Of a stretch of DNA of 64,000 nt, positions 40,001 through 63,976 are shown piece after piece (within the stretch, counting starts at the first letter, position 1; the number at the start of each line of letters is the position of its first letter). The notes beneath the pieces are model-generated. The model was not told the origin of the DNA. It searched no databases and was given only the letters and a program-made list of their open reading frames with translations. A program made the position numbers and the translations under genes. The stretch comes from Antedon mediterranea (taxonomy: Eukaryota > Echinodermata > Crinoidea > Comatulida > Antedonidae): the NCBI RefSeq assembly GCF_964355755.1, contig NC_092676.1, positions 24,720,288 through 24,784,287 on the forward strand. Reading direction: 5' to 3'.

Positions 40001-41907
40001 TGTGTGATTCAATAGCAATGTCAAGAAACGCAAACGGTAAACACAAACTGTAAACACAGTTCCAGTTTTCAGATAATCCGAATAGACCAACAGTTACTTA
40101 CCATATATGTAGGCTGGCATAAACACTCCTGCGTGAGTCAAGGAGGCTAGAAAACGCAGTGTTACGTACGTCCAATAAGATGGCGAGAAAGCTGCCACAA
40201 AATCAAGAAGAATGTAGCACGAATAACACGCAACTATTAATTTTTTTCTTCCATATCTACAATGTTCAAACAATAAAATCAAATAACGTGTTTGACACTT
40301 TAACACATCAATGTATTAAGTAAATATAAATAGACGTAAATTAGATAAACTTAACAGTCAATCAACATGAATTTCTAAATTTATATTTTGCAAAATGAAT
40401 GTTTTAACATCAAGGTTCAAGATGATAATTGTATTTAACTACTGTAGAGTAGTTTGCGTCAGAGGTAGTTAAGTAATTGGTCAGATGTTTACTCTGACGT
40501 AATTCAAGTCCCACCCGACAATTACTGTATTACTACTTTTTTCAATGTACTTAGTAAAGTAAAAAATGACGTCAGAGTAAGGCAAACATCTGACCAATCA
40601 ATATTCATGTTATCCGCCATATTTTCTCTTGTACATTAAAGCTTAGTTCCCACTAGGGCGCAACACACGTAATTTTACCAATCAGAAGCGATGGATTATT
40701 GGTCAACGAGTTGAACTTGCGTTGCGTCCTAGTAAGAACCAAGCTTTATAAGCCCACCTGTCACTTAGATTTCCAAGAAAAGGTGCCGATATCATAACAC
40801 CAAAAAATGCAGTTGACATGGCAACAGAAACCAGTCGTGCTGATTCACACACCAGTTCGAACTAGAATAAAGTTATAAAAAAAAAAACAATAACCATCAA
40901 TTTGGCTTAAATACATCCAACCAGCCTCATTATTATTATTACGGTTTTAGGGTTGTAGATCCAACATCTATTTGTTTTCTGAATATTTCAAGTAGTTTGA
41001 TAATTAAGCATTTATATTTTATTCCATAGAACTAGTACCGTACTGCTAAAGGGTAAGGCTACTCTGGGATGGTACAGATAAAAGTAGGCTACATTCAATT
41101 TTTGTTACAGCTCACTCTGTCGGTTGGTCGGTCGGTTGGTCGGTAAACACTAACTTGAGCACGCGACTGCAGCCATGTATATGGCCTTGTTAGGGGTGAG
41201 GCTTTACTCTATACATATAGCATAGTAATACAGTTTTTTCTCGATATTTTAAAAACTTGTTTGTTTCCACTCTGAGACGTAACGCAAGGACCAATGACAA
41301 GCGAAGGATTATCGAACTGTCGCTTGCCATTGGTCAACTTGCGTTGGAAAGAAGACAGTTATATAATTTTAAGGGGAAATCTTCGAGACCCAACAGAGGG
41401 TAATTGACCCCTTGGTGGTTCGTTTCTATAGAAAGTGTTATCGACCTTTGAAGAGTTGTATCATAAAATGTTCATGTTTATATTAGGTATATGTTATTTT
41501 ATACTTACTTCTTGCGTTACCGTTGTCTTATATTGCGAATCGTCAAACACCCATCCATTTTCACAAGAATGTCTTGTATTCTCAAGCTCACTGATGTTCG
41601 ACCCTAGCGTAAAGCCAGTGTAGTTATATTGTGAACATTTACTTTCATCAATAAGTAAACTATCAGAATCGTCTGCAGGGCGCAACGCACTCATCATGTT
41701 CTCGCATTCTGTCGTATTCAATCCTTCTTCTCTGCATGCCTCTTCCCACCCTGGCAGACTACACCAGTGATCTGTTTCAACCAGTAAGAACACTTGTATC
41801 ATAGAATGTAACGCTTCTGACATAACAGAAAGAGCTAAGAGTAGAAATGACATCCATAAGTATCGGTTGTATCTTCCCAGGTATTTAAACAACTCATCGT
41901 AATGCAT
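37055..41907 (-). CDS. SLC22-family organic ion transporter, copy A
   Basis: Predicted 12-transmembrane major-facilitator carrier of the plasma membrane (organic cation/anion/carnitine type). Coding exons in transcript order: 41509-41907, 40758-40861, 40102-40256, 39728-39899, 38872-39007, 38659-38762, 38105-38313, 37852-37957, 37498-37704, 37055-37145 (stop 37055-37057). They total 1683 nt, 560 residues, normal for SLC22. Seen: MHYDELFKYLGRYNRY start and TM1; large first extracellular loop with several Cys and sequons NTT, NYT, NIS; LVCES; MFS motif GNLSDRYGRKK across an exon junction; GPTERS; LVPESPRW; DRWGRRP; GKFSIS and EILPTPIR; LPETKGTHLPQT. The Met at 41907 is chosen because copy B starts there too. 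Substrate cannot be predicted (OCT/OCTN-like versus OAT-like). The C-terminus ends VLEMT. Confidence 0.92.
38459..38608. mobile_element. MITE family M1 copy 6 in SLC22 copy A
   Basis: AAGCTATTCCTACACCATCAAA on the left, TTTGATAGTGTAGACAGGGTTTAA on the right, in an intron between 38313 and 38659. Copy B lacks it at the matching position, so insertion followed duplication or it was lost there. Confidence 0.75.
39193..39660. mobile_element. MITE family M3, larger fold-back copy
   Basis: GGCAATCTAGCAACATGATG at the left and CATCCTGTTGTTAGACTGTC at the right, with internal GATCAAAGG and CGATCAGTTC motifs in both orientations. Lies in an SLC22 copy A intron. Confidence 0.7.
40640..40747. mobile_element. 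MITE family M2 copy
   Basis: AAGCTTAGTTCCCACTAGGG at the left and CCTAGTAAGAACCAAGCTTT at the right, with inner inverted GCGCAAC/GTTGCGT. It adjoins the donor of SLC22 copy A exon 2 (40757). Related copies: about 53628, 54867 and 63188. Confidence 0.7.
41103..41192. repeat. Repeat family M4 copy 2 (CGGTCGGT, GCACGCGACTGCAGCC)
   Basis: Same core and right end as 10918-11024, in intron 1 of SLC22 copy A. Confidence 0.65.
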
Positions 41908-43828
41908 ATTTAACAAAATATTATAATGCCTTTATGTATGTACAGTTGTGGTTTTAGCCCAACGCTATTTCTTCAGGTCAAATCGTCAATATCGCTCTAC
42001 AAAATACAAGTATACAACGCTCCTTTTCGTGTTTACAATCAAGTTTTATCTCGGTTTGTTTATTTATTGCAATAGTACTTAGGGCGCTTATCCTAAATGC
42101 GAAATTGATCAAAGTACGGACGCAATAGGCAGAAATATATAGAAACATGCCGATTGGTAGAGGTTATAGACGGTGACCCAAACAAATACGGAAATAATCA
42201 CTCTAAATATCAACGCTGTAGGAAATCCAAACGAGGTGATTATAATACCGTGCAATTTCCTAATATGGGTTGATTTATGAGTAACTTAAAAATTCATTGA
42301 TCTCACAGAAGCTACACAAAATGTTACTTATGTGTAGGTATTATTGTTGTTTTTAAATAATGTTTTAAAAATGTATTTTCCTAAAAAATCCTTATCTAGA
42401 TCAGCCACTGCAACTAGCACGGACTCACTGAATAAATTCTCTGCAATGTTGTTTCTTAGTCTATTCTTGACTGAAGGATTCCTGATGATGATATTAAAAA
42501 TGATTGATCTCACAGAAGCTTTTTAAACAAAATTGTGCAGGTATGATTGTTGTTTGTAAAATGTATTATGTCCTCAAAAACATTAAACATGAAAATAAAA
42601 TCATATTTAAAAAAAACCTGAAATATGAAGGTTAATAAAAGAAGACTTTGAATAGATAGTTTTACAGTTTTAGTAAAGTTAATCACTTTCGTAAAAAAAT
42701 AAGTTTGTTATTTATAAAAGTCAAAATAAAGTGCTAAATTCAAACAAAAACCCATTGACTTCCAGTCAATTTGGCTATTTTTATGCAAATCAGAATTACA
42801 GTTTACTGAGCATGCGTATTGAATATTTAAATTAAGTAAATGATGGTATTGTTTCTTCGCATTCCTTCTTTCACGTCGATCGTGTAGTAATGTTTCTTTT
42901 CATCACCATTATTCTAGAATACGTAAAGGCCTACGTCATGCCATATGTGTTTATGAGAGAATTAACAGGAATAATATGTTGTGAATGCCATACACATGTT
43001 AAAACGAACAAACTATTGGTAAGTTTCAAACCATTTATTCAGATTGTAGGCCTATATTTCAGAAGTAACAACAACCCGGATGTATAGTTTATTTGAAGTA
43101 AACATGTGTACGTATCGAATTCACAGGTTTGAGTTCGACACGACTGAAGTTTGTGGTTGTACCCACCAATCACACTTCGGCCTATGTGAGATATTTCGGT
43201 TAAATTAGCAAGAATTTGACTTAAGTTTGTAAAAGTAAGGATACCCGTTAAGTGGTATTCAATTTCAAAAGAAGTGTTTACATTTAAAGTGTTTCACTCA
43301 TCATCTGCGGGGCCCCGACAGCCCCACAAACGACTAATGACAAAAAGAAGAGAGAGTGTGATTAGTGAATGTGATTAGTGAATGTGATTAGTGAATGTGA
43401 TTAGTGAAAAATGTGTATATTATAAGATGTAATTGTTTTTCCAAAAATGAATTCCACTTTCCTAACAAAAATAAATTCATACAGTACATTTGTTTTACTT
43501 CTTAATAAAGTTTGAGAACAATAACGTCACACAAGAAGGTGATGCACAATTGATTTGTGTTTTTCTTACGAGGTAGATTTGGAATATTAGGCATATATAT
43601 CTATATATTTATACAAGACGTAAATAAGTTACTAACTATTAACCGTTATACAAACGTGGTAATACTCGGTCTACAATTTCAATTAATTAGGGCCTACACA
43701 GTGGAAGCCCATTGGGTATTTACAAGTAAGAAATTATGCATATCATTATTTGTATAAAATAATGGTGTCTACATCTGTCAATCGTTTAATAGGAGTTATT
43801 CGTAATTTTTGTAATCCTCATGTTGGGG
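41908..43828. other. Upstream region of SLC22 copy A
   Basis: No coding exon supported. Contains partial M5-like sequence (about 42540-42775), a 13-bp tandem GTGATTAGTGAAT repeated about four times (43352-43405), and sequence duplicated at 49899-50580. Promoter elements cannot be assigned with confidence. Confidence 0.5.
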
Positions 43829-46800: not shown

Positions 46801-48514
46801 TACAATGTTCAAACAATAAAATCAAATAACGTGTTTGACACTTCAACACATCAATGTATTCAGTAAATATAAATAGACGTAAATTAAATAAACTTGACAG
46901 TAAATCAGCATGAGTTTCTAAATTTATATTTGCAAAATGAATGTTTAACATCAAGGTTCATGAATATAATTGTATTTAACTACTGGAGTAGCTTTGCGTC
47001 AGAGGGAGTTATCTTACTTTATTACTGCTTTTTTCAATGTACTTGGTAAATTAAAAAATGACGTCAGAGTAAGGCAAACATCTGATCAATCAATATTCGT
47101 ATTATCCGCCATATATTCTCTAGTGCATTAAAGCTTAGTAAGTAATTTTACCAATCAGAAGTGGGAAGCAAGCTCCCTACCTGTCACTGAGATTTCCAAG
47201 AAAAGGTGCCGATATCAAGACACCAAAAAATGCAGTTGACATGGCAACAGAAATCAGTCTTGCTGATTCACACACCAGTTCAAACTAGAATATTAAAAAA
47301 AGAAAAATAGAACAGAAACTAGGCTTAAAACATCTTCCTCAAGCCTAATTATTACTACCGTGCTTATAGTTACACGATATTTGTTTTCTTAACATTGAAC
47401 AATTCAATTTAATGATTATCCATTTACACTCTCGGGTGGTACGAATAATAAAAGTACTTTCAATTGTTAGGGTTGGGGGATGAGGGGTGGTATTGGTACA
47501 ATCCAATACGATTTTTCTGTAGACAGAACTAATACAGTTTGTTTTGATATTTAAAAAGAAAGTTGAACAGAGTGGAACTCCTATTACTCTTACTAAAGAG
47601 TAAACAAAGAGGCTCATTGGAGTCAAACCTAATACATCGACATGTAAAGTCCATAGTCTTATCCACTCGACTACACAGACGGCTCTATAGAAATTGTTTG
47701 CATTATAGCGAATTGTTAGCTCAATTCTTATGCATGATGCAATTATTCTGAAACCTTATTTATATGACTAATGAATATTCATGTGTATTTTGTGACGTTT
47801 CACGAGGGGTCCCCAACTTATGTACGAAAAGAAATATCGCGTCCGGGCCCAACGGAAAGCTATTATAATATAATAAGAATACATGTTATGTTATACCAAG
47901 GCACTCTTCAACAGGACACTGAGGTCGCCTTGCCAAGATAGCAACTCGTAACAGTTCTTTTGATCTTATGTCAAATACCAACAGTACTGTGGTGACTTTG
48001 TACATTTTCTCCGCGGCGCACGGTGTCTATTATTATTAGGGACGTGGAACTAATCATGTCGAGTCGCAGGCACAGATAAACCCTCATGTTATTACAGTGC
48101 CTTGGTTATACTTACTTCTTGCGTTACCGTTGTCTTATATTGAGAATCGTCAAATACCCATCCATTTTCACAGGAATGTCTTGTATTCTCAAGCTCACTG
48201 ATGTTTGACCCTAGCGTAAAGCCAGTGTAGTTATATTGTGAACATTTACTTTCATCGATAAGTAAAGTATCAGAATCGTCTACAGGACGCAACGCACTCA
48301 TCATGTTCTCGCATTCTGTCGAATTCAATCCTTCTTCTCTGCATACCTCTTCCCATCCTTGCAGACTACACCAGTGATCTGTTTCAACCAGTAAGAACAC
48401 TTGTATCATAGAATGCAATGATTCTGAAATAATAGATAAAGCTAAGAGTAGAAATGACATCCATAAGTATCGGTTGTATCTTCCCAAGTATTTAAACAAC
48501 TCATCGTAATGCAT
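43829..48514 (-). CDS. SLC22-family organic ion transporter, copy B
   Basis: Tandem paralogue of copy A. Coding exons in order: 48116-48514, 47181-47284, 46645-46799, 46262-46433, 45872-46007, 45635-45804, 45085-45293, 44849-44954, 44205-44411, 43829-43898 (stop 43829-43831). They total 1728 nt, 575 residues. Eight of ten exons equal copy A in length. Exon 6 (intracellular loop before TM7) is 66 nt longer with a Glu-rich insertion; its acceptor is the only in-frame choice I found and is weak, so that start is uncertain. The last exon is seven codons shorter and ends HDEI because of the duplication breakpoint. Motifs GNLSDRYGRKK, GPTERS, LVPESPRW, DRWGRRP, EILPTPIR are all intact. Function as for copy A; substrate unknown. 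Confidence 0.9.
47771..47840. mobile_element. Fragment of the right arm of the 16077-17786 element
   Basis: GACGTTTCACGAGGGGTCCC followed by CAACTTATGTACGAAAA and ATCGCG, as in the repeat island. Lies in intron 1 of SLC22 copy B. Confidence 0.7.
47897..48107. mobile_element. MITE family M3 copy next to an exon 1 splice donor
   Basis: Begins ACCAAGGCACTCTTCAACAGG and ends GTGCCTTGGT, inverted ends. Its right end is about eight bases from the exon 1 splice donor of SLC22 copy B (48114-48115). Copy A lacks it there. Confidence 0.75.
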
Positions 48515-51500
48515 TTTTTTATACTAATGCCCTATATATGTAAAGTTGTGGTTTTAGCCCAACGCTATTTCTTCAGGTCAAATCGTCAATATCGCTGTAC
48601 AAAATACAAGTATACAACTCTACAACTACAACAACTATTTATTTATTCCAATAAATGCGAAATTGATCAAAGTACGGGCGCACCATACTGAAAATATATA
48701 GAAACATGCTAATTATAATACCGTGTAATTTCCTAATATAAATGTATAGATTTATTAGTAACTCATTAAAATTCATAGAAGCATAAACAAAATTGAACTT
48801 ATGTGCAGGTATGATTGTTGTGTTTGCATAATTTTTTTAATGAATACTAAAATCAGACTTTAAATGCCATGCGCGTAATTTATTCATTGATCTGGCCGAG
48901 GATTTTTAAACAAAATTGTACTTATGTGCGGGTATATGATTTATTTAAATTACAGTTATTTTTTACAAGTAAATCCTTTTTTTTATCATCTAATTTTTGG
49001 TCAAAGTTTATAGCTATTATGTGACATTAAAATGGTATATTCAATAAAAAAATTGTAAAATATTTTTCAGTGGGACAATTATTATCTTTAAAAAGACAAA
49101 TTAAACAATCATATTCAACCAAGAACTTATTAGGTGGCAGCCAATAAGACTATATTTTTGCGTGGAGACTCTTCTCTGGTTTAACGTACTGTATGTCTTT
49201 GTGTTGCAACGTAAGCAACACAAGATATCAGATATAGTGGTCCTGAACTTTGAAATAACTTACCCATTAGCATCAAGAATTCCACAAAGAAGAAAAGCTT
49301 TTCCTATAATTTTAAACGCCACATTATTTCAACTTACTTATAAAATAATAAAAGAAAAGGTGAAAAATAAATACCTCTACTCATTGCAGTCGATTGTTTT
49401 GTACCTTTTCTGTTTGTGTTTCAGTATTTGTTAGTATTTGTTGTGTTACTGCATATGAAAGAGTATTATTATTATTAATATCTTATGGCTTGCCCAGCAC
49501 AAGTTTCTCTTGGTTTTTCCGTTTGATTTTACTTTTTGGAACTTTGCCACTTTCAAAACTTAAAGAAATGTATTACCATTTTATAAGACACTTCTTTTTT
49601 CCAGTCTGTTTTATTCTCATAAAATATTTGTAAATTAAAAGAAATGTTATTTTTTATCGTTATTTTGTTTTTAAGAGAAATAAATGTTTTAAAACTTGAA
49701 TTGAATTAAAAAACAACAAAGCGCATCGCAAATAATTTGACCAATCACGACGTCACGTTTGTTAAGTTAAATGAATGTTTTTTAAAACAGTAAAAAGTTT
49801 AAATTGGCATCGTGTTCAGTACTCGTGCTATTAGAATAGAAACATTTTCTTTTTCCTCAACATTAAGTTATCAATCAAGAAAGGAAATACAGGGCCTAGT
49901 GAGCATGCGTATTGAATATTTAAATTAAGTAAATGATGGTATTGTTTCTTCGCATTCCTTCTTTCACGTCGATCGTGTATTAATGTTTCTTTTCAGCACC
50001 ATTATTCTAGAATACGTAAAGGCCTTCGTCATGCCATTATGTGTTAGTGAGAGAATTAACAGGAATAATATGTTGTGAATCAAAGGGAATGCCATACACA
50101 TGTTAAAACAAACAAACTATTGGTAAGTTTCAAACCATTTATTCAGATTGTAGGCCTACATTTCAGAAGTAACAACCATTTATTCATATTATACAACAAC
50201 CCGGATGTATGGTTTATTTGAAGTAAACATTTGTACGAATGGAATTAACAACAGGTTTGAGTTCGACACGACACAAGCTTGTGGACGTATTCACCATTTT
50301 TTACTTCTTAATAAACACCAGTTTCAGAACAATTACGAGGTAGATACAATTAATACTTTTAATATAGAATAATATATATTTATATATTTACAAGACGTAT
50401 AATATTAATAAGTTACAAACTATTAACTGTTATACAAACGTGGTAATACTCGGCCTATAATTTCAATTAATTAGGGCCTACACAGTGGAAGCCCATTTGG
50501 GTATTTACAAGTAAGAAATTATGCATATCAATTATTTATATAACATAATGGTGCGTACAAGACATATCTGTCAATCGTTTAATGATGTTAAACGTCATTT
50601 TTATAAGTTACCCATGATCCTCATCTTTGGGTCAAATGTCATATCGATTGTTGAAATATATTTAGAAGCCATCAGCATTTTTAGTCGCGTGGAAACGACT
50701 CTATAGTTCACTATGTCGGTCGGTCGGTCTGTCAGTCTGTCGGTCTGTCGGTCCGGTATCACTATGCGTTTTATCGCTTTCTGACTTTATCTTGATATCA
50801 GTTTAATCTAGCTAGGTCATTTTTTCACAGTATATTCCTTATGGCCAGGAATCTATGTGGTTATGTTTTCACGGTGCGCAATAAAAAATTACGCGGTCTA
50901 CGCACGATTTAACGAAATCACGTTTGTAATCATATCTTCACAACCATGAATCACAATTAAATAAAATTTGGTACTCATAAATTTCAGGGCATAAATCATC
51001 ATAATGGCAATACAATGACGTGCGTAGCGCATGTAACGCATGCGTACGCGCGCTTAAGATTTTCAAAATTCATTTTCGATGAAATAAGAGTACGTTTCAG
51101 GCAATTTTAAGCGTTTACAAAATTGCACTGCGCGTTAAATGTTATTGCGCACTCTTTTTGCCCGATTTCTGTTTTCTTGACTTTTCAACTCGAAATCACG
51201 TTATACGAGCACGTCAAAAGTGACAGGCTACGCACGTGTAAATTTAAAAAATATAAATGTTTTTAAACATTTCAACATTTTTAAACATGTTCAGTAATTT
51301 CGGTCAGTATAGTTCACTATGTCGGTCGGTCGGTCGGTCGGTCGGTCTGTCGGTCTGTCTGTCTGTCGGTCCGGTATCACTATGCATTGTAGCACGCGAC
51401 TTAATGGCTGTTGGCCTTGTTTCAAATAACGTTCACTCGCTGACTTCTTAGCATACAAACCGCATAGACTTCAAGAATTCATACCACATCATTTTTCACT

Positions 51501-51543: not shown

Positions 51544-54500
51544 TTATCTAAACATGTCGTCATCGCTATCATGATTGTCACTGCTACTATCATGTTGCGA
51601 TTCCTTTTCCACTTCATCTTCACTTTCATCTTCTTTTTCTTCTATATCGTCTTTATTCGTCTCTTCATCCTCACTATCAGATGAAGACGAGGAGGAAGTT
51701 GAATCTGCTTCAGATTCACTTGTCGTGTCAACTGGCTCGGTTAGTTGATCTATTGGTTCGTCATTTATATCTTCAGCGTCATCATTAAGTTTGGTTTCAC
51801 TTACTGCTTCTGAGATTTCCTCTTTAAAAAAATTAATTTGTTACAAAAGAAATTAAAGAATATTATTTGTTTGTTTAAGATATGTATTGTTGTAAAATTT
51901 CGAAAGAGAATTATATATTTGAGAGAGTTAAAAAAAAAATGTTTTATGTACATTAAGTTTACAAAGGTTTCCCTTATTTATTCTTTAATGTTTAGGGACT
52001 GACCTGATAAGTTCTAGCTATTTTAGTTCTTCTCATGATGTTTTATTTATGTGTGTTTAACAATTATTTTTAGGTAAATATAAAAATAGAGAGTAGCCTA
52101 ACTAAACACGTGTGTCCACACAGTACGACTATCTCCTGAGTGTCGGTGTAGTGTTATTAAACATATATTGCTCTTCGTTCATTTCATGGGAAAGTATCCG
52201 CTTAATATAAGCAGGGAAGATCTATTGCCTGATATAAGGGTACCACCTGAATAGGAACGTCCTGTGATTAAGAATGTCCCTATTGTTTTTAGCCAAACGT
52301 CTTTTTTTTTCATTTCATTTCATTTCACATTTATTCAATTAATGAAAACTTAAAACAATGTAAACAATAAAAACAAATAAAGATTTCATTAATTTGGATC
52401 AGACTTAGAAGCCAAGGCCTGTCTCAGAAAGACCCAACAAAACATAATACAAAATAAAAATGTATACAAATTAGGTAAAAGTGGCATAATAGTAATAATT
52501 AAACTTAATTTGATGTCTGAATATTTTTGCATTTTCAAATTTTTTTAGATTCTCTTTTAAGTTATTCCATAATTTAGGTCCATGGACTGTAATAAAAAAA
52601 TTGGCTTTTGCTAAGTCTTACAAAAGGAACATAAAGTAAATTTGTGTTCTTAAGATAATAACTATGGACAGTCTTACTGTCTTTGGCTTTTTAAATAATG
52701 AAATTATGGAAAATGGAAGTTGACCTTTAACATATTGGAACATAAAAGTAAGTATTTGTTGTCTATGTAAATCTATTACTTTTATAAAGATATTAAGTTT
52801 TTTAAACAATGGTTCAGAAGTTGAGGCAAATGGTGCTAGGTTGATTATTCAAACAACACGTTTTTGGAGTTTTAGTAATCTATCCATGTTTGAAGGATAA
52901 TCACTGCACCAAATAAGGTTGCAGTATTGTAAATAAGGAAGGATAAGAGAATTGTATAATGTAATTAAAATATGTTGAGGGAAAGTAAACTTCAGTTTAT
53001 TTAATATTCCTATAGATTTAGATACTTTATTTGCAACATAATATTGGTGCGGTTTCCAACTTAGATGTTCGTTTACAATTATATCTAAGAATAGAGTTTC
53101 AGGTTTTTTGTTAATGTTTTTCCCATTTAAAGTAACTTTTAAGTTTGATACGTTAACTTTCTTTTGGATGGGATGAAATAATAAATAATTAGTTTTTTCG
53201 ATTTTTATTAAAAGTCTATTTGCATCAAACCAAGAACCAATTGTTTTTAACTCATTGTTTATAGTATATTGTATAAAATATCTAAATTATCATGCGAGAA
53301 AAATAATGTTGTATCATCGGCGAAGGACACAACCTGTAGAGTGTCACTCACACGAGTCAAGTCATTTACATATATTAAGAACAATAACGGTCCCCGCCAG
53401 AACCTTGTGGAACGCCACAAGTTATGTCCCTCGTCGATGATTTACATCAATCCAATGAAACAAATTGCTTGCGGTCAGTAAGATAACTTTTGAACCAGTC
53501 CAAAGATATACCTCTGATCCCATATTTATCAAGTTCGGAGAGTAAAATTTGGTGATTTATAACATTTCTTCTTTTCTTCTCGGTATTTTTTATATATAAA
53601 TAGAGAGTGTCGGTTTTTACTAAAGCGTGGTTCTCACTAGAGAGGCAACACAAGGACGCAACGCAACGTAAGTGATTTGACTAATCAGAAGCGATGAAAT
53701 ATTCAAACTGTCGATTGTCAACTTGCTTAAGTTGGGTCTACGTTCTTATACGGTACACTTCAGAATGGCAGTATAGCCTACTTACCAGATTCAATTGGGT
53801 CATCATAGCTTTCTATCGTTATGATACTCATTCCTATACAAATAGAAAGTCAAAAGTGTTTTATTTTTTTTTGCTGCAAAAGCTAATGTTTAAATTCTTC
53901 AAAAACGTATACAAATTAGTATCTTTACAATTCAATTTGCTGTGATAGGAATAAATATTAGGCCTACAGTACATTAATAGTACTATTATACTATATTACA
54001 TGCATTTACTATTATTAATAAATTACATTCATTTTGAAGCGAACAAGAATACAATAATAAATATTTTTTATTTTTGTTCCTATCAAGAGAATTCTGTTTT
54101 AAATATTGTCACAATTATTCATTATAAAACTAAATGGTTTTGTTGAACATGTTATTCATTTGGTACATTACGATGTAATTCTACTTACTGCGTGGTTCAA
54201 ATTCGGATATCGTGGTATTAACTGTACTGGCAATTGAGTGTCCTAAAAGTTAAACAAATTTCATTCATCAAAAAACTAATCAAATCATCAGGAAGTAACC
54301 AAAGCTCCTTATAAAAGTATTGCATTTTATCAAGAAATATAGTTTAAGAAATATGTTTTCTTGAATTTTTAGGTTTTTCATTTTGTTTAGTTGTTAATCA
54401 ACCCTAACCCTTAAAAAATATATTATAGTTAATACTCACGTTTTTCCTCTATCAGAATCGACTAGAATTGAAAAATTGAAACAAATAGTTTGCATATTAC

Positions 54501-57500
54501 ATTACAGAAATCCACTTTTTGAACTCATTATAGCCTTGTAATTTGTCAAAATTCTAAAGATACAGTAGTAAACTATAATGAAGTTGTAATAGGCCTATTG
54601 ATACGTTATCATACTAATGTTAATCAAATATAAAATTTAAATGTTCCACTTACAGCTAACTTAATATCATCTCTTACATCTGTAATCTGATAAAGTATAA
54701 AATAAAAAACTTATATTTTTGGTAATGGCTTCATAAAGTACGATATAAATTAATACTATACTGGTAATTGATTGATTATGTACTGTATGAACTTATAAAG
54801 CGCAACCTGAGTTAATATTTTTTAATATTACTGTAAGATAAGATTTTGTTTCAAGAGACGGCTCTGTAACGCTTGGTTCCTACTATAGACGCACACACAC
54901 TGCAAGTTGACTAATGACAAGTCTCATTGTGATAATCACTCGCTTGTGATTGGTCAAATTACTCGCGTTGCGCTTACGTCGTTGTGTTGTAGCGGGGAAC
55001 AAGATATATATATATATATATAATATACGATTTTAAACGGATGTTCCATATTATATATTGTTGGTATAAATAACAGTAGTACTTACATCCTTGCTAAAGT
55101 AGCAGTATACAGAAATGGTTATTCCGTTCGAAGAAAATAAGATATAGAATATCAACCAATAGAGGTATTCTCTATCTGCCAGTATAACAAAGGCCCAGGT
55201 GAGGATTAGATGAGGTACCAAGTAAAGTGAACCGAATGTACAGTGCCTGATAAAACAACATAACAATTGTGTTTAATGTTATTCATCCATAAGCGTACAG
55301 ATTGGTTCCATGTTTGTACGTTCTGTTTCTTTACTTATCTAAACAAAACAACATTATTTATCAGCTACCGAGGATTTTCGTTGTGCGTCAAACCACGGCA
55401 GTAACAAGACAATGAGCTCCCCTCGCCAAGATAGGAACTCGTAACAGTCCTTTAATCTGATCTCTCGCTGAGAAAAATACCAACAGTACTGTACAATGGG
55501 CATATTTTCCGTGGCGCGCGGTGTCTGTTAAGGGGCGTGGAACTATCGTGTCGCAGCCATATATAAACCCATTGATCTCCACCCTTGAAGCTCAGCATCC
55601 TGTTGTTAGAATGCCTTGGTTTACTAATTATAAATATGAGAAAGAGAAATTATGGGTCTGATTTCCTACCTGAGATGCAGTTTGATCTCTTCTGCTCTCT
55701 TAGATCCTTTTGATCCTTTAATTTTACGCAACGAGAGTAAAACCAGTAGCGTAATTCTTGCCTAAATAAAAAAAATATAAATACATACAATTGAATATTT
55801 TTAGTTTCCATGATAAAAAAAATCTTCTAATAAACACTAATAAAACGTTAATTGTCTTACCCGTCATGCACGAATACTTACAACAATTAGAGTCATCGAA
55901 GGGAATACAAAAGCAACTAGACCACCTGCTTCAAACTTTAACCAGCATCTGTAAAAAAATAAATAAAGGTAACATTAAGTGCAATTTTTTTTAACTGGAT
56001 CAAAATAAATCCTCCTTTTAAAACTAATCTTTTACTTTTTTCAGTAGTTCAACCTTGTTACCATATTGGGTGACTCACCAGAAAGTTGGGTATACGGTGG
56101 ATAATTGTTGATACCTAAAAATTTAACCCCTTAAAAATTTAACCCCCTAAAAATTGTATACCTTAAAAATTTAACACATTAAAAATTTAACACCTTAACA
56201 ATTTAACACCTTAAAAATTATAATAATTACCCTTCACTATCACCGTACCCATGATGAATACCAAAAAACACCGCAGCAATCACTAAAGACCCTCCATATG
56301 CAAACGTAGCGTAACCTATCCTCTTCGACGGACTTCCTTGGACTCTGTATTGGTTGGCACGCATGAACAAGTGTACACTCTCAACCGTGAGCCACAAGAG
56401 AATGGACATGTAGAAGAAGTGCAAGAGTACGCCAAATATATTACAATACAGCTGTGAAGATACGAAATAGAACATGATTCTTAAAAAGATTGCAAGAAGT
56501 CTCACAAAATATTTAATTTGTTGAAACTTAAATTCGAACCAAATAATTTCAAATTAACAAAAACGGCAATATAAAATAATGAATTAATGTTTCGTGTAGG
56601 CATCTCTATACATTATTAACTTACGAGATAAAACATGATTCTTAAAAAGATTACAAGAAGTCTCACAAAATATTTACTTTTTTTAAACTTAAATTTGAAC
56701 CAAATAATTTAAAATTAACAAAAACAGCAATATAAAATAATGAATTAATGTTTCGTGTAGGCATCTCTATACATTATTAACTTACGTGATATTCGATGAC
56801 TTCAGAATTTACTATAAATAGTATCGTAGCGCAGAATGTCGATAACAGTAGATTGGAGTAAATGAACACCATTCCAGGTCCTCTGAACAAACCCCTTGAT
56901 TTATCAGAAGAATATAATAGAATGTTATAGAGCAGTCCAATCACCCAAGTAGTATAAGGTTTGCGTTGTCAGGAGAATAATACAGAAGGAGTTCAGGACC
57001 TCTTTCATTGCTCTTAAAATTCCACCACCTAAGCTGCTAAGCTATAATTTAAAGATCATTTACACAAGACAAACGGAATAGAATTTTAGGCATACTTACC
57101 ATATAGTATTGATAAACTTGGCAACGTAGAATATTGCTATGAATGAAACTATGCATATACTATATATGCCTAGCCTTTCGCCTAGTCGAGCATAGTCGAA
57201 GCCCTCCTCCTGAAAATACAGTGTAATTAATATAAAAAAGGATGTGATAGTGTTGATAGTGAGAGGCTACAGTAGTATAAGCAAGACACTGAGCTCGCCT
57301 TGCAAAGATAGTAACAGTCCTTTGATCTTATGTCTGGCTGCGACAAATACCAACAATACTGTACTATATTCTCCGGCCTCGCGGTGTCGGTTAAAGAGTG
57401 TGGAACTGATCGTGTCACAGCCATAGATAAACCCTTTGATCTGAGGAGCCCAGCATTCTGTTATTAGTATTGGTATGAGAGACGATAATGGTGAAGTGGT

Positions 57501-60500
57501 TGCTTTGCAGCCGAATTATGATTTATTTCATTTTAACCTATAAATTGGTAACTAATAAACAAGTGGGTTAGCTGCACACCTTATACTTTACTATAAATTG
57601 TATTACACTATTTAATAGGAACATAGTTAATACATATATGAATTGATCGGATCCACTGACCTCAACTGGTTTTTCAACTGGAGTAAAAATTCCAAATGTT
57701 GTTGTGTGATCACATTTACATTTCACATGCCTGTCAACATATCCAATGTTTTTACAACCAGTAGTTGACCAAATCCTGAATGAAAAAAATATTCAATTTT
57801 GTATAAAATATTATCGATCGAGTGGAAATTTCAATAATGCATCTTAATTTCGTCGGTAATCGTTACAAGACAGAAACTTATGATATTTATACTTGCGAGA
57901 ATAATTTAATAATTAATAATTTTTTGGTTAGTTAAAACTTTTCACAACGTACCGTTTACTCACGTGCCAAAATACACAAAGTGCATTTTCAGTAAAATAT
58001 GTTTCATCAGATGAAATAAGAGACTATAAAACAACAAGAAGTATACTGTAACAAGTTAATTAAGCAAATTCACTCTTCCGTTATAATAATAATATAGTAT
58101 GCCTTATGGAAACAATGTACGGAAGGCTTGGGTTGTTTTAAAGTTGTTTTAATAAATTTGTAGTTGTAGTTCAAACTTATGTTTAACTTACATAATCTAA
58201 CTCCATTGAAAATTCCACTGAAACTTGGAATGATGTCGTGTTTGTCCCTATACTGTATGACAACAAACCAGTTGCAAGCGTGTAGGGAACACCACTCTTA
58301 TCTTCGATACTGAAATACATATGAATAAAACTTATAGATAACTCTTTAGAACAATGTAATTCTGGAATACCGAACTTAAAATTATAATCCTTGCATAACT
58401 ACAGAAGTTTTTCTGCTGTAAAAGTTACTTGAATAGAATTTTGCCAAGTATAGTACTTGCTTTGTTTGCTTGTTAGCACGATAGCGCCTACAATTTTCAA
58501 GTTATCATTCTGTGTTATTTTTCGGTGTAAATATAGGTACGGTATATATTTACAGAATATGCCTATTGAATTTAAAAAAAATCGGTTCATTAATACTTCA
58601 CAAATAACAAAAAAAAAGATAAATTTGTATTCTTTTAACATGGGCCGAAACATCAATATTTTCTTCCAAGTATACTTCACTCAGTTTCTGAGGGCTTTCA
58701 TTAGTGTATTGTTATGTTTTTCTTCGAATGTGTTATTGGAATTTTGACCAAATAAATAAATTCATGAATGTTGTTTGTAAAAAGTCAATGGCACCGCTAA
58801 AAACAGAATTGTACCCAAATGACGCTGATTGAGATTTGTTTTGTACGCGTGCGCGTACGCGTGCGCAAAGGCTTTTGTGAATTGCATTGCTCTGTACTGG
58901 AAATATACTGTTACATTTACCTTTCCTCCATTTCAATGGAATCACTCTGCGTTTCAATAATTACATCTTTATCATAATATGTAGCGACAATCGTTGCTGT
59001 TTCTGAAGACGAAAATAGTAATTGATTATCATTAATTTAAAGAAAATTCTAAGATACCATATAGTTGACCAACATCATCATCCTCCTATACTGTACAGAA
59101 CCTAATTTGAGTATAGTCGCACATGGGTTGGTCACATTTATGCAGCTGGGCATCCTAATTTTCCTTAAGTTTTGTGTTCCACACGTTTCTAAATTATTAT
59201 TATCATTATTACATTACAATTTTTACACGAATACCTTGTTTCTACCCTGTTTCTACCATTACCGGTATTGTATAAGTTAACTATAATTATTGTAAGTTAA
59301 ATATATTTCATATTTAATTTTTGAATTCTTCTCTTTAAATGATGATAATTTTATTTTTGTTATTCTGTTCTAATTTTTAAAACAGTTTGTGTGACCTTTA
59401 TCTTAGACCAAGATTAAGAGATCAATAGAATGACACTTACCGTCAATCCCACGAGCAGAATTGGCATCTAACGTTACATAACATTTGTCCTTTGGTTTTT
59501 TGTTTACAGAATTATCTTTAGTAACAGCAAAGTCATCTCCATCTTTGGAAATGTGTACAGTCCAATTTCTAGATTTAATTGGTGAAATGCTGGAAACTAA
59601 GCAAAAAACACATACTTTAATGACTGGTTTTATACTTTTGCAATCTGTTTATTTTTTTCAATTTGTTTACTTTTATAATTTGTTTACTTATGCAATTCCT
59701 CTACTTTGAATCCCTCTTTTTTGGTAATCCCTCTACTTTGGTAATCCCTCTACTTTGGCAATCCCTCTACTTGGCAATTCCTCTACTTTGGCAATTCCTC
59801 AACTTTGGTAATTATAATTCTACTATAGTAATTCGCCTACTTTGGTCATTCTTCTACTATAGTAATTCGCCTACTTGGTCATTCGCCTACTTTGGTCATT
59901 CGCCTACTTTGGTCATTCGCCTACTTTGGTCATTCGCTTACTTTGGTCATTCGCCTACTTTGGTCATTCGCCTACTTTGGTCATTCGCCTACTTTGGTCA
60001 TTCGCCTACTTTGGTCATTCGCCTACTTTGGTCATTCGCCTACTTTGGTCATTCGCCTACTTTGGTCATTCGCCTACTTTGGTCATTCGCCTACTTTGGT
60101 CATTCGCCTACTTTGGTCATTCGCCTACTTTGGTCATTCGCCTACTTTGGTCATTTGCCTACTTTGGTCATTTGCCTACTTTGGTCATTCCTCTACTTTG
60201 GTCATTCCTCTACTTTGGTAAATTCCTCTACTTTGGTAAATTCCTCTACTTTGGTAAATTCCTCTACTTTGGTCATTCCTCTACTTTGGCAAATTCCTCT
60301 ACTTTGGCAAATTCCTCTACTTTGGCAAATTCCTCTACTTTGGCAAATTCCTCTACTTTGGCAAATTCCTCTACTTTGGCAAATTCCTCTACTTTGGCAA
60401 ATTCCTCTACTTTGGCAAATTCCTCTACTTTGGTAAATTCCTCTACTTTGGTAAATTCCTCTACTTTTGTAAATTCCTCTACTTTGGTAAATTCCTCTAC

Positions 60501-63500
60501 TTTGGTAAATTCCTCTACTTTGGTAAATTCCTCTACTTTGGTAAATTCCTCTACCTTGTAATTCCACTACTCCCAATTCCTCTACTGTTACAATTCCTCT
60601 ACTTTTTCAATTGTGCAATCGTTCTGCACAAACAAATTACATGCCTACAATACTTACCAACGTGTTTTGATGGTTGGATTAAATCAACGTTTTCTTCTGA
60701 ATTTACAACTTGTTGCATCACCTTTTCAGTGGCTATAATCATATCGATTTGTTTATTGATTTCCTGAAACCAAAATTATAGAAAGGTTACGCTGTTGTTG
60801 TTGTTAAAAATGTCGATAAAAAGTCAGGAACAGTTTCCTAGTGTAGACCAGTTGAATACCTTAAAAACCTGCATGTTTGCAGACAAGTCTAAGTCTATTG
60901 GTAACCAAACACTGAGTTTATTCAGAATAAAAAAATGTTAAGTTTATATATACAGTACCTTGTTTTCATTATATACAACTATATCTGTCACTGAAACAAC
61001 GTCCTGGTTGTAAAAATAAAAAATAAACAAATTGTTTACAAGATACTTTTTTTTCTATTAGCCTAAAATAATCTAAAAATATCAATTAATTGAAATTTAA
61101 GGGACTCAAAATCACTGAAACTTTTACCATGACGCGACGAGTCTACGATCTGTTTTATGTCCGCCGTTATAAAATTAAAAAATCGCTATTGTGTCTACAA
61201 TATGTTTGATATTAATAAGTAAAATGTTTACCTCTACTGTTTGCTTTATATCACGATCGGACACAAACACTCCATCTGCTAATTCAATAATCACTGATGA
61301 TAACATATCAATTTCATTGTTTGAGAGTTGTCGTGGATTTGCTAGTTTTGATGCAATTCCGGATATGCGTAATTTATCTGTTAATGATGATCCGTTCATC
61401 TTGAACAAAAAAATGAACCCGTCCATTATTTGTTTTTCGTGTCACTCTAGCGGGGCCAGAAGCATTTTTCTACTATGAGGTTAAGGCAGAAATCATGAAT
61501 AATGACATTGACATTATGACATTGTAGTATATATAGTAAAGTACAAATAATTAGGGTCATGAATTATTCATGATTTCTGTCTTAACCTAATACGAAACAA
61601 ATAATGCGGCAGAGGATACGCCACTGTAGCAAGTTATCAGCAAAATAAAGTTACTTACTAACGCGCCTAGATTTTGAAAAGCAACGCGGATGTTCACATT
61701 GAATGTGAACTGTACACTGTTTCCACTAGGGTCAGTAGCGGTATAAACGACTCTTGTATTTCCAATGATAAAAATGTCTCCAGAACTATGTGTTGATGAG
61801 ATTGTCGGCGGGATCATAGAGTTATCGGTGGAAAGAGGTTCGTTCCATTCCACAGATGAGTTCGTCTCGGTCGCATCAATAAAAATCTCTATGTCACTTG
61901 TCATGTTAACAAAGTCTGGAGGTTCATCGTCTGAAATTGAAAAAAAAGCGGTATGTTTATAAGCAGTTAGACAGATTTCATCAATATTTCTATGATGAAT
62001 AGTACGAGTTCGCAGCAGATCAGCAGAGTTAAACCTTACCGTTTAAACGGCACATAAGCGCAACTGATTCTTTTTTCAGACATTAGGCCTAGCCTACTCA
62101 CCAAACACATCAATTTCAAACTGGCATAGTACAAAATTCGCGGCTTCGTCAATGGCTCTGAAGGTGACTGTAGTTGTGGAAAAGAGAAATACGTCACCAG
62201 TGTTATGATCAGACGTAATGGTAGGCGGGATCTGTGAGTTATCCGATGCACTTGGCTGGGTCCAATTCACCACTGCTGTGTACAGGCCATCATCAGTACC
62301 AATTGAAATATCAGATGGACAGTAAATAAAATATGGCTTCTCTAAATCTATCGAAATAAGGTAATAATACACTTCTATGAACACCGAATGAAAGTAAATA
62401 TATTTATATTTAAAAGTTACAATGATACAAAATATAATAGTGCAGGTAACATATTAAAGACTGTTTGTGGTACACCACATACATTTAGTATGAACAGCAA
62501 TGTGACACCACCTTAGAAACAATACTCTTCTATAGCTGGTTTCCATTGCGCCCATTGTGAAGCTTACTATTGTTTTAACTTTCACACCAGTCCCACCCAA
62601 TTTCCTCTATATTCCCAGTTTTCTGAACTTTCTTCATTCTCACTCCCGGGGACGATCGAAGTATGTTGATCGAAACGTCGAGAAACTCATCAGTTCCTTT
62701 CATTACTATACGTGGTGTACCGCAAACTTTACATCAACATTTTGATTTCACTATGCAAAACTTCAAACAATATATTAAAGACTATTAATAACATAAAGCT
62801 ATACCTAAAACTGTAATAACGAAAGAACAGTTCTGTACGTTTGATGCACCATCTGAAGCAGTGTAGATGACTTGTGTTTGGCCTACAGTAAAAGCCTCTC
62901 CTGGCACGTAATTGGTAGTAACTACTGGATGGTGTCCAGAATTGTCAATAATGTCTTGGAAGTCCCACTCTACGCGTGCCGAAGGCAATCTGTACTCTGT
63001 GTTGACGGTAATATCCATAGGACAGGTATAAAATACAGGTGCTTCAGTGTCTGATAAATAGCCAAGAAAATAGATAATAATGCTATGATAACTATTAAAT
63101 TGTTTATTCTATATACAAAGAAACATCGACCTCAATTCTTTTGAATTATGCGTATTGCTGTTTAATAAAAAATATTCTACTAATATACTTGATTCCCACT
63201 GGGCGCAGCGCAGGGACTAAGTGTTTTGACAAATCACAAACGATGGAGTATTCGAACTGCCGTTTGTCATTGGTCAACTCGCTTGCGTTACGTCTAGGTA
63301 CTTACGTTACGTCCTAATGGGACCAAAGCTTAAACAATACGATCAATTGTGATTACCTTCAACTAGTATATGAAACACACACGTTATTGTGTTCATAGAT
63401 GGATCAACAGCAGTAATGTTTCCAGTGTGGAAACCAATAGTAAACTCATCCCCTGACAAGTGCGAGTGATGCATTGTGGGTGCTTCTCCTGAATTATCCG

Positions 63501-63976
63501 TTGCATTAATGCTATCCCAGAAGACAGTCGCTGTTGGCATTCTGTGATCCGTAGAGACCGTAACATTGGCAGGGCAATTATGAATAACTGGAGATTGATC
63601 ATCTGAAAAATAGATACAGTTTGTTTATGAAGCGCTGAACGAGAAACTCGGAAAAACCTCATTTATAAGGAAAAATATTTATCTCTATCAACTAGCTCTA
63701 TCTATTAGCTATGTTGCTAATTCTTCTTACCTAAAACTGTTATATTGAATTGGCAATATGCAATGTTTCCCGCAGCATCTTCAGCGGTGAATAAAATAAG
63801 ATGAAATCCAATTTGGAGTTCCATTGACGTCACTTCCCGATCAGCAATCAATGGATTCTCACCACTGTTGTCAGTTGCGTTCAGATAGTCCCATGAAACG
63901 ATTGTTGTTGCAACATTAGGATCTGAAAAACCTGTAAGATCCTGAGGGCAATTTCTGAATACAGGGGCGGTAATAT
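51544..63976 (-). CDS. HYR-domain adhesion G-protein-coupled receptor (5' end outside window)
   Basis: Class B2 (adhesion) GPCR. Exons in order: 63731-63976, 63357-63602, 62805-63050, 62102-62341, 61659-61930 (five HYR domains, phase-1 exons); 61232-61399, 60959-61003, 60658-60763, 59441-59596, 58921-59002, 58192-58309 (GAIN-like); 57953-58023 and 57661-57775 ([19 protein letters not shown], then [12 protein letters not shown]); 57100-57209 (TM1), 56786-56894 (TM2), 56231-56451 (LYC, TM3 [23 protein letters not shown]4), 55882-55948 (CWL, TM5), 55670-55761, 55087-55246 (TM6-7), then tail exons 54654-54686, 54440-54461, 54189-54242, 53786-53833, 51544-51821. About 1100 residues are visible. 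Phases agree throughout. HYR domains probably mediate adhesion; autocleavage at the GPS and G-protein signalling are inferred. The start codon and more ectodomain lie beyond 64000. Confidence 0.88.
52303..53600 (-). mobile_element. 5'-truncated LINE with reverse transcriptase fragment
   Basis: On the minus strand 53447-53580 encodes [16 protein letters not shown] then [15 protein letters not shown]; 53290-53400 reads [12 protein letters not shown] and [11 protein letters not shown], the reverse transcriptase FADD catalytic box; 52850-53240 contains thumb-type LSWKPH...[15 protein letters not shown] and [17 protein letters not shown]. This is a Jockey/CR1-like non-LTR element. It is broken by a stop after LQKRVV and a frame change near 53410. 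The 3' end near 52303 is T-rich with TTTCA repeats (complement of a TGAAA tail). It sits in the last GPCR intron. Confidence 0.85.
53615..53745. mobile_element. MITE family M2 copy
   Basis: ACTAAAGCGTGGTTCTCACTAG at the left, then AAGGACGCAACGCAACG and inverted GTCGATTGTCAACTTGC. It abuts the truncated end of the LINE. Right boundary approximate. Confidence 0.55.
54867..55003. mobile_element. MITE family M2 copy in a GPCR intron
   Basis: TAACGCTTGGTTCCTACTAT at the left, TTGTAGCGGGGAACAAG at the right, with inner inverted CTAATGACAAG/CTTGTGATTGG. Confidence 0.6.
55383..55620. mobile_element. MITE family M3 copy in a GPCR intron
   Basis: CCACGGCAGTAACAAGACAATG at the left; CATCCTGTTGTTAGAATGCC at the right; internal CGTGTCGCAGCCATA. 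Confidence 0.65.
56105..56222. repeat. Tandem ~16-bp TTAAAAATTTAACAC repeat
   Basis: About seven degenerate copies of CCTTAAAAATTTAACA in the intron downstream of the TM3-TM4 exon, ending just before its splice donor. Confidence 0.8.
56474..56786. repeat. ~160-bp tandem duplication spanning an exon-intron edge
   Basis: The segment ATGATTCTTAAAAAGATT through ACATTATTAACTTACG occurs twice (56474-56625 and about 56635-56785). The second copy ends with the true donor of the TM2 exon, so the duplication created a decoy donor sequence in the intron. Confidence 0.8.
57270..57480. mobile_element. MITE family M3 copy in a GPCR intron
   Basis: Contains AAGACACTGAGCTCGCCTTG, GGCTGCGACAAATACCAAC and ACTGATCGTGTCACAGCCAT, and ends AGCATTCTGTTATTAG, matching the M3 family. 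Confidence 0.65.
58843..58866. repeat. 24-base alternating purine-pyrimidine tract
   Basis: Two copies of GTACGCGTGCGC in tandem, in a GPCR intron. Strict alternation makes it a Z-DNA candidate. Confidence 0.85.
59690..60560. repeat. 17-bp minisatellite with two successive unit types in a GPCR intron
   Basis: Units TACTTTGGTCATTCGCC dominate 59880-60190; TACTTTGGCAAATTCCT and TACTTTGGTAAATTCCT dominate 60210-60550; mixed precursors precede 59880. It lies in the intron between 59596 and 60658. Long open frames through it reflect the repeat, not a protein. Confidence 0.95.
63188..63335. mobile_element. MITE family M2 copy between two HYR exons
   Basis: TACTTGATTCCCACTGGGCG at the left, CCTAATGGGACCAAAGCTTA at the right; inner inverted CAAACGATGGAGTATTCGAA and CCGTTTGTCATTGG. 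Confidence 0.65.

Follow-up and report, generated by a model that had tools for sequence, protein, structure and literature searches.

The window analyzed here is a stretch of 64,000 nucleotides (nt) of Antedon mediterranea DNA (contig NC_092676.1, called C7 below). At its right end, on the minus strand, lies the 3' part of a gene for a putative adhesion G-protein-coupled receptor (GPCR) with an ectodomain of HYR (hyalin) repeats. Positions above 64000 are extended coordinates, from DNA read onward to the right of the window. The gene model (51544-74753) contains 28 exons from a C-type lectin to the stop codon, in which all internal borders are AG/GT, the phases are consistent throughout, and 1,750 codons are read without an internal stop. 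The domain order is C-type lectin, 12 HYR domains, GAIN/GPS, seven-pass core, and acidic tail (Table 1), and one additional HYR upstream of the lectin brings the number of HYR domains to thirteen. Five of the HYR exons are within the window, and seven more exons of the array lie to its right together with the lectin.

Domains of the gene model

The HYR domains were scored against Pfam PF02494 (cut-off, 21.7 bits). All five in the window, in minus-strand open frames between 61587 and 63995, exceeded the cut-off (41.7 to 59.3 bits), as did 12 of the 13 units overall, with H2 (16.1 bits) below it. The spliced model matched Pfam GPS PF01825 with 42.9 bits (cut-off, 22.5), the GPS being located just before transmembrane segment 1 (TM1), and Pfam 7tm_2 PF00002 with 58.9 bits (cut-off, 20.6). 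These scores bear out a preliminary description of the window, in which five or more HYR domains had been assigned to an adhesion GPCR at 51544-63976. The right end of that interval is the first base of HYR exon H8, and the lectin had gone unnoticed since its exon is beyond the window. The DNA to the right of 64000, where a search for more HYR exons had been recommended, contained the seven array HYR exons, the C-type lectin, and the further HYR. The preliminary description had also placed each HYR on a phase-1 exon of about 246 nt. This holds for four exons in the window (246 nt, phase 1-1) but not for H12, which has 272 nt, runs from phase 1 to phase 0, and so shifts the frame to the phase of the GAIN exons. 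H12 adjoins the GAIN region and is without both cysteines present in H1 to H11. When a family HYR profile was run over 84 kb, no strong unit was found beyond the 12 in the array and the one before the lectin; a fragment was matched at 76676-76509 (E = 0.16).

TM1 to TM7 were all present in the exon model, as judged by eye, and the last base of the stop codon is at 51544, so the seven-pass core is complete, as had been claimed. The top matches in a PDB sequence search were adhesion GPCRs (ADGRL3, E = 1.6e-19; ADGRD1, E = 6.4e-19), which we take as a lead only and not as a subfamily placement. The GAIN region occupies about 280 residues in the expected place and is 35 to 36% identical to the regions of two paralogs that were pieced together from exon matches. 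The GAIN/GPS of ADGRG6 gave a partial alignment (E = 1.1e-4) that was strongest at the GPS end.

Carbohydrate-binding C-type lectins carry the calcium-sugar motifs EPN or QPD and WND. By eye, the lectin of the model reads ...GTPVDF...WEE..., with neither EPN/QPD nor WND. Since these motifs are missing, sugar binding should not be assumed, and from its sequence protein binding appears the likelier function.

At the 3' end, acceptor 51821 was rejected for the tail exon because it opens a frame with stops. With acceptor 51819 the frame is open, in phase 0, and this choice is supported by the tail exons of two paralogs, which end similarly. At the 5' end, exon comparison with the paralogs revealed two N-terminal HYRs common to two paralogs and no convincing common coding exon upstream of the first HYR of the gene. 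The best match there, a segment at about 78.7 kb, is common with the 5' region of the paralog at C7:7.590M (55 to 60%); its frames contain stops, and it is probably a dispersed repeat.

Table 1. Exons of the HYR receptor gene, listed from 5' to 3' (↓ marks the predicted cleavage point)
Feature	Position	Strand	Remarks
Additional HYR, 5' of lectin	about 76040-75799	-	30.2 bits
C-type lectin exon	74753-74373	-	Pfam Lectin_C 53.4 bits
Seven further array HYR exons (H1-H7)	64410-64165 to 68821-68579	-	right of window
HYR exon H2, one of these seven	68120-67860	-	16.1 bits, under cut-off
HYR exon H8	63731..63976	-	246 nt, phase 1-1, Pfam HYR 50.7 bits, AG/GT borders
HYR exon H9	63357..63602	-	246 nt, phase 1-1, Pfam HYR 53.2 bits
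HYR exon H10	62805..63050	-	246 nt, phase 1-1, Pfam HYR 59.3 bits
HYR exon H11	62102..62347	-	246 nt, phase 1-1, Pfam HYR 41.7 bits
HYR exon H12, last of array	61659..61930	-	272 nt, phase 1 in / 0 out, Pfam HYR 50.1 bits
GAIN-region exon G1	61232..61399	-	splice borders; counterpart in 3/3 paralogs
GAIN-region exon G2, 45 nt	60959..61003	-	splice borders; counterpart inferred from paralog-to-paralog matches only
GAIN-region exon G3	60658..60763	-	counterpart in 3/3 paralogs
GAIN-region exon G4	59441..59596	-	counterpart in 3/3 paralogs
GAIN-region exon G5	58921..59002	-	counterpart direct in 2/3 paralogs, third via paralog comparison
GAIN-region exon G6	58192..58309	-	counterpart in 3/3 paralogs
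GAIN-region exon G7, GPS motif start CVFW	57953..58023	-	counterpart in both C7 paralogs
GPS exon, predicted cleavage H-T↓T-T-F-G-I-F, then tethered-agonist segment	57661..57775	-	Pfam GPS 42.9 bits
TM1 exon	57100..57209	-	exon model
TM2 exon	56786..56894	-	exon model
TM3-TM4 exon	56231..56451	-	Pfam 7tm_2 26.4 bits alone
TM5 exon, starts at cysteine of extracellular loop 2 (GCWL)	55882..55948	-	exon model
End of TM5 and intracellular loop 3 exon	55670..55761	-	exon model
TM6-TM7 exon	55087..55246	-	exon model
Last exon, Ser/Asp/Glu-rich cytoplasmic tail, ends DSDDDMFR and stop	51544..51819	-	open frame; paralog tails

Paralogs and genome-wide placement

Profile searches covered the genome as 354 Mb in 18 contigs. 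Three closer relatives of the seven-pass core were found in the same genome, at C2:33.886M, C7:7.558M, and C7:7.590M. Direct reading of all three showed a lectin, a HYR array, exon G6, the GPS, and the TM exons, in identical order and on one strand. The motif HTTTFGIF is identical in the GPS of all three. At both paralogs that were read far enough, an acidic last exon lies 3' of TM7 and ends DYDSDDACFEK or DYDSDDACFGK.

We then compared the positions of HYR and 7tm_2 matches. The HYR list held the best 150 of 1,417 candidates; the 7tm_2 loci, 116 in number, were obtained by collapsing 150 listed matches (out of 160 matches, with the best 150 of 367 candidates scored) and adding six places from the search for relatives of the core. 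In the 30 kb upstream, at least 13 of the 116 listed loci had a HYR on the same strand, whereas each of the three controls (same strand downstream, other strand upstream, and other strand downstream) gave 0 of 116. At 50 kb the counts were 14 against 2, 0, and 0, and at 15 kb they were 10 against 0, 0, and 0. Since the lists hold top matches only, the locus counts are lower bounds, and the HYRs of the two C7 paralogs fall outside the top list, which brings the HYR receptor loci to at least 15 (13 plus 2). The lineage expansion that had been suggested is supported.

For the four loci, 46 HYR units were placed in a FastTree tree, and its branching order was read. In this tree, the HYR units of the three paralogs cluster by position, and window units H3, H4, H10, H11, and H12 group with their positional counterparts. 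The best matches of H1 and H6 were also positional counterparts, as was that of H5 for one relative only; H2, H7, H8, and H9 had no clear positional partner. After the lectin, the window gene has 12 HYR units, the C2 paralog 11 and one weak unit, and the C7 pair 11 and 8. In the copy with 8 (C7:7.588-7.608M), the counterparts of H3 to H5 are missing. Because the paralog units cluster by position, the arrangement of twelve units seems ancient and for the most part conserved. The earlier idea that HYR number is easily changed therefore fits the C7 tandem copy with 8 units beside a neighbor with 11, but not the general conservation of the layout.

The two C7 tandem copies were the single pair from which the ratio of nonsynonymous to synonymous substitution rates (dN/dS) was estimated. 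The ratio was 0.18 for HYR (626 codons, 8 matched units), 0.11 for the GPS (35 codons), and 0.28 for the lectin (48 codons, part of the domain only). Seven of the eight individual HYR pairs were below 0.4, and one was 1.17. By these ratios, the HYR domains are under purifying selection between the C7 copies, and diversifying selection on HYR was not supported in this single testable pair.

Other HYR loci, repeats, and neighboring genes

Another group of HYR receptors was found on C1 (6.92M and 39.57M) and C8 (18.64M). Its intron positions, judged by match extents, differ from those of the window receptor, and its GPS is canonical (...CDHLTNFA(I/V)). The HYR exons of the C1 loci come from direct reading (two of three pieces), those of C8 from the genome profile search. 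Pfam at the single locus of this group that was scanned (L010) matched HYR, an Ig domain, and 7tm_2. Lectin exons lie 5' of the HYR arrays in two C1 receptors (39.599-39.601M and 39.672M). At C7:7.618M, adjoining the C7 pair, another locus combines HYR with a GPS of sequence ECHCSHTSIFGIL. The HYR receptor loci C1:39.57M and C1:39.64M, and likewise C1:6.59M and C1:6.78M, are paired, with equal or near-equal HYR scores and similar spacing, and we therefore regard them either as segmental duplications of very recent date or as haplotypes left uncollapsed. A dense HYR cluster at C10:11.87-11.92M has lectin exons 5' and no 7tm_2 nearby among the matches listed; it perhaps encodes a lectin/HYR protein without a receptor part. 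A bindin core exon gave a single match in this genome (C1:15552879-15553076, minus strand, E = 2.3e-28), in which the matching sequence is interrupted by one stop. Bindin is, to our knowledge, found in echinoderms only, and the match thus agrees with an echinoderm genome. Markers of a tunicate gave no support for such an origin: glycosyl hydrolase 6 had no hit, although its control had none either, and the ascidian spliced-leader pattern had 0 matches. COX1, sought for the mitochondrial code, gave no match.

Several introns of the window gene contain repeats. A 17-bp minisatellite of about 53 copies (59692-60605) occupies most of the intron between G3 and G4. Elsewhere in the window, 17-bp units also form an array of about 103 copies (6163-8014) and one of about 12 copies (3730-3935). 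A long repetitive frame is also present inside the receptor locus L013/L014. Between TM2 and TM3, a 161-bp intron segment is tandemly duplicated (56461-56791, 2.1 copies, 94% matches). In the last intron, an open frame at 52852-53286 (minus strand) resembles, by eye, the terminal part of a polymerase from a non-LTR retroelement; Pfam at 0.01 gave no match.

Elsewhere in the window, a cytochrome P450 heme-binding exon (Pfam, 57.5 bits) lies on the plus strand at 28709-29020. Two nearly identical minus-strand exons at 41497-41931 and 48095-48523 had no Pfam match and, judged by eye, probably each form exon 1 of tandemly arranged genes resembling those for organic cation transporters.

Proposed receptor and alternative explanations

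The gene most probably encodes a self-cleaving, tethered-agonist adhesion GPCR whose HYR/lectin arm grips the matrix or a neighboring cell. In the predicted protein, the outer part would begin with the N-terminal HYR and the C-type lectin and continue as a rod built from twelve HYR domains, followed by GAIN/GPS, the seven-pass core, and the acidic tail. In vertebrate adhesion GPCRs, the cleavage site is HX↓T, and the cut is followed by a TxFxI-type tethered agonist. By analogy, the receptor would cleave itself at HT↓T in the GPS, and the cleaved arm would be held noncovalently. The arm may bind a matrix or cell-surface partner, and a pull on the arm, or its loss, would free the TTFGIF segment to act on the core as a tethered agonist and could lead to G-protein signaling.

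Several observations weigh against this proposal. The search of the assembled protein with profiles, recommended earlier, recovered HYR, GPS, and 7tm_2 but no Pfam GAIN family, and the solved GAIN domains aligned mainly with the last part of the GAIN region and the GPS. The residue before the predicted cut is T; the usual residue at this point in adhesion GPCRs is L. No signal-peptide exon was established at the 5' end. The dN/dS of the seven-pass part was 0.50 (185 codons of TM1, TM3-4, TM5, and TM6-7, 20 changes), with 0.87 for TM3-4 alone and 1.68 for TM6-7 alone on few changes, so the C7 pair does not show strong constraint on the core.

It is very improbable that the model joins two neighboring genes by exon chaining, an upstream one for a secreted lectin/HYR matrix protein and a downstream one for a short adhesion GPCR. 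HYR-only genes are plausible neighbors, since HYR clusters without 7tm_2 nearby among the matches listed exist in this genome (for example, at C10:11.87M and C4:29.47M). However, the phase is unbroken from H12 to G1 and across all 28 exons, the order recurs at the three paralogous loci, and the chance-neighborhood controls gave 0 of 116 at 30 kb. Among the HYR units, moreover, the last one matches best when the window is compared with each of the three paralogs (50 to 51% identity), as expected if H12 is tied to the GAIN side. Together with the counterpart GAIN and tail exons, the consistent phases and the common order argue strongly against two separate genes and for the preliminary assignment of the HYR and seven-pass exons to one gene. 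That the gene is a decaying pseudogene of the expansion is scarcely credible: although an intronic minisatellite and a retroelement-like stretch (by eye) lie inside it, the 1,750 codons have neither stop nor frameshift, and every splice site is intact.

The function of the arm allows other explanations. The protein could be mainly a shed or anchored adhesion molecule that acts through its HYR/lectin arm, with the seven-pass part serving as a mere anchor with little signaling. The stronger purifying selection on HYR than on the seven-pass codons and the T before the cut are in its favor, but the GPS with HTTTFGIF is kept in all three paralogs and the tail ending in both that were read on the 3' side, and we consider such an anchor unlikely. 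On the other hand, the HYR arms could be fast-diverging recognition surfaces for gametes or immunity rather than for attachment to an embryonic matrix. A bindin exon is present in this genome, near-equal match scores make several of its HYR receptor loci look like recent duplicates, and in strongylocentrotid sea urchins three HYRs of the egg receptor gene EBR1_5 are described as being under positive selection in the part of the source consulted (PMC5521101). The C7 HYR exons, however, are under purifying selection overall, with the one pair at 1.17 standing apart, and this role in recognition is possible but doubtful.

For the self-cleaving adhesion GPCR proposed above, HYR-containing partners (hyalin-like matrix, egg-coat, or neighboring-cell proteins) are the first candidates, because HYR is the repeat of echinoderm hyalin. 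A bolder and rather improbable extension is that the HYR-lectin adhesion GPCRs are the missing signaling receptors for the HYR matrix and bind hyalin-type arrays through their own HYR arms. If so, the hyaline layer or egg coat would elicit G-protein signals directly, when cells attach to it or when it comes under tension, and repeated gain and loss of whole receptors and HYR exons would create lineage-specific codes of matrix recognition.

Comparison with known receptors and HYR proteins

The nearest solved receptors, ADGRL3/latrophilin and ADGRD1, have in common with the window receptor the GPS, a class-B seven-pass core, and HX↓T followed by a TxFxI-type agonist. Compared with vertebrate adhesion GPCRs, the window receptor adds a lectin and thirteen HYR domains, and we know of no vertebrate adhesion GPCR with HYR.

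No description of a HYR-bearing adhesion GPCR was found among the papers listed by literature searches with HYR and hyalin terms, although the echinoderm adhesome paper (Whittaker et al. 2006) could already list one. By term search, the main texts of the Ciona (PMC2396169) and sponge (PMC4302439) repertoire papers contain neither HYR nor hyalin, and the portions consulted of PMC10381214 and PMC9759900 have nothing on HYR adhesion GPCRs. A paper on choanoflagellate GPCRs (PMC12716839) is indexed once each with "HYR domain" and "hyalin repeat," and its text shows neither. Such proteins may well be present, without remark, among the public gene models of echinoderms.

C-type lectin domains have been described in the ectodomains of amphioxus adhesion GPCRs and were then called unique to amphioxus among GPCRs, as far as the excerpted paper goes (PMC2246102). 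The amphioxus receptors thus share the lectin with the window receptor, and "HYR" and "hyalin" are absent from the main text of that paper. Hyalin is described, in the sections consulted, as a cell-adhesion substrate (PMC9382459, PMC11212366). Like the window receptor, the HYR proteins of echinoderm matrix or footprints, hyalin among them, have serial adhesive HYR domains, but they are secreted, and those sections describe no seven-pass part (PMC9382459, PMC11212366). EBR1_5 of strongylocentrotid sea urchins, with a transmembrane segment, a SEA domain, and seven HYRs in the available part of its description, is membrane-anchored with serial HYRs like the window receptor and has the transmembrane segment and SEA where the window receptor has GAIN and the seven-pass core (PMC5521101).

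Adhesion GPCRs are understood through their ectodomains, in which every new module points to a new kind of partner. In this one genome, the module of the hyaline-layer protein hyalin is combined with a predicted signaling receptor at no fewer than 15 loci. If their arms bind hyalin-type matrix, these receptors would be a testable candidate for the way echinoderm cells sense that matrix, and the twelve-unit arm, with a tandem copy short of three units, would offer a natural test of arm length against force sensing. By its sequence, the window receptor belongs to a known receptor class, and its HYR-lectin ectodomain appears to be a new variant of that class.

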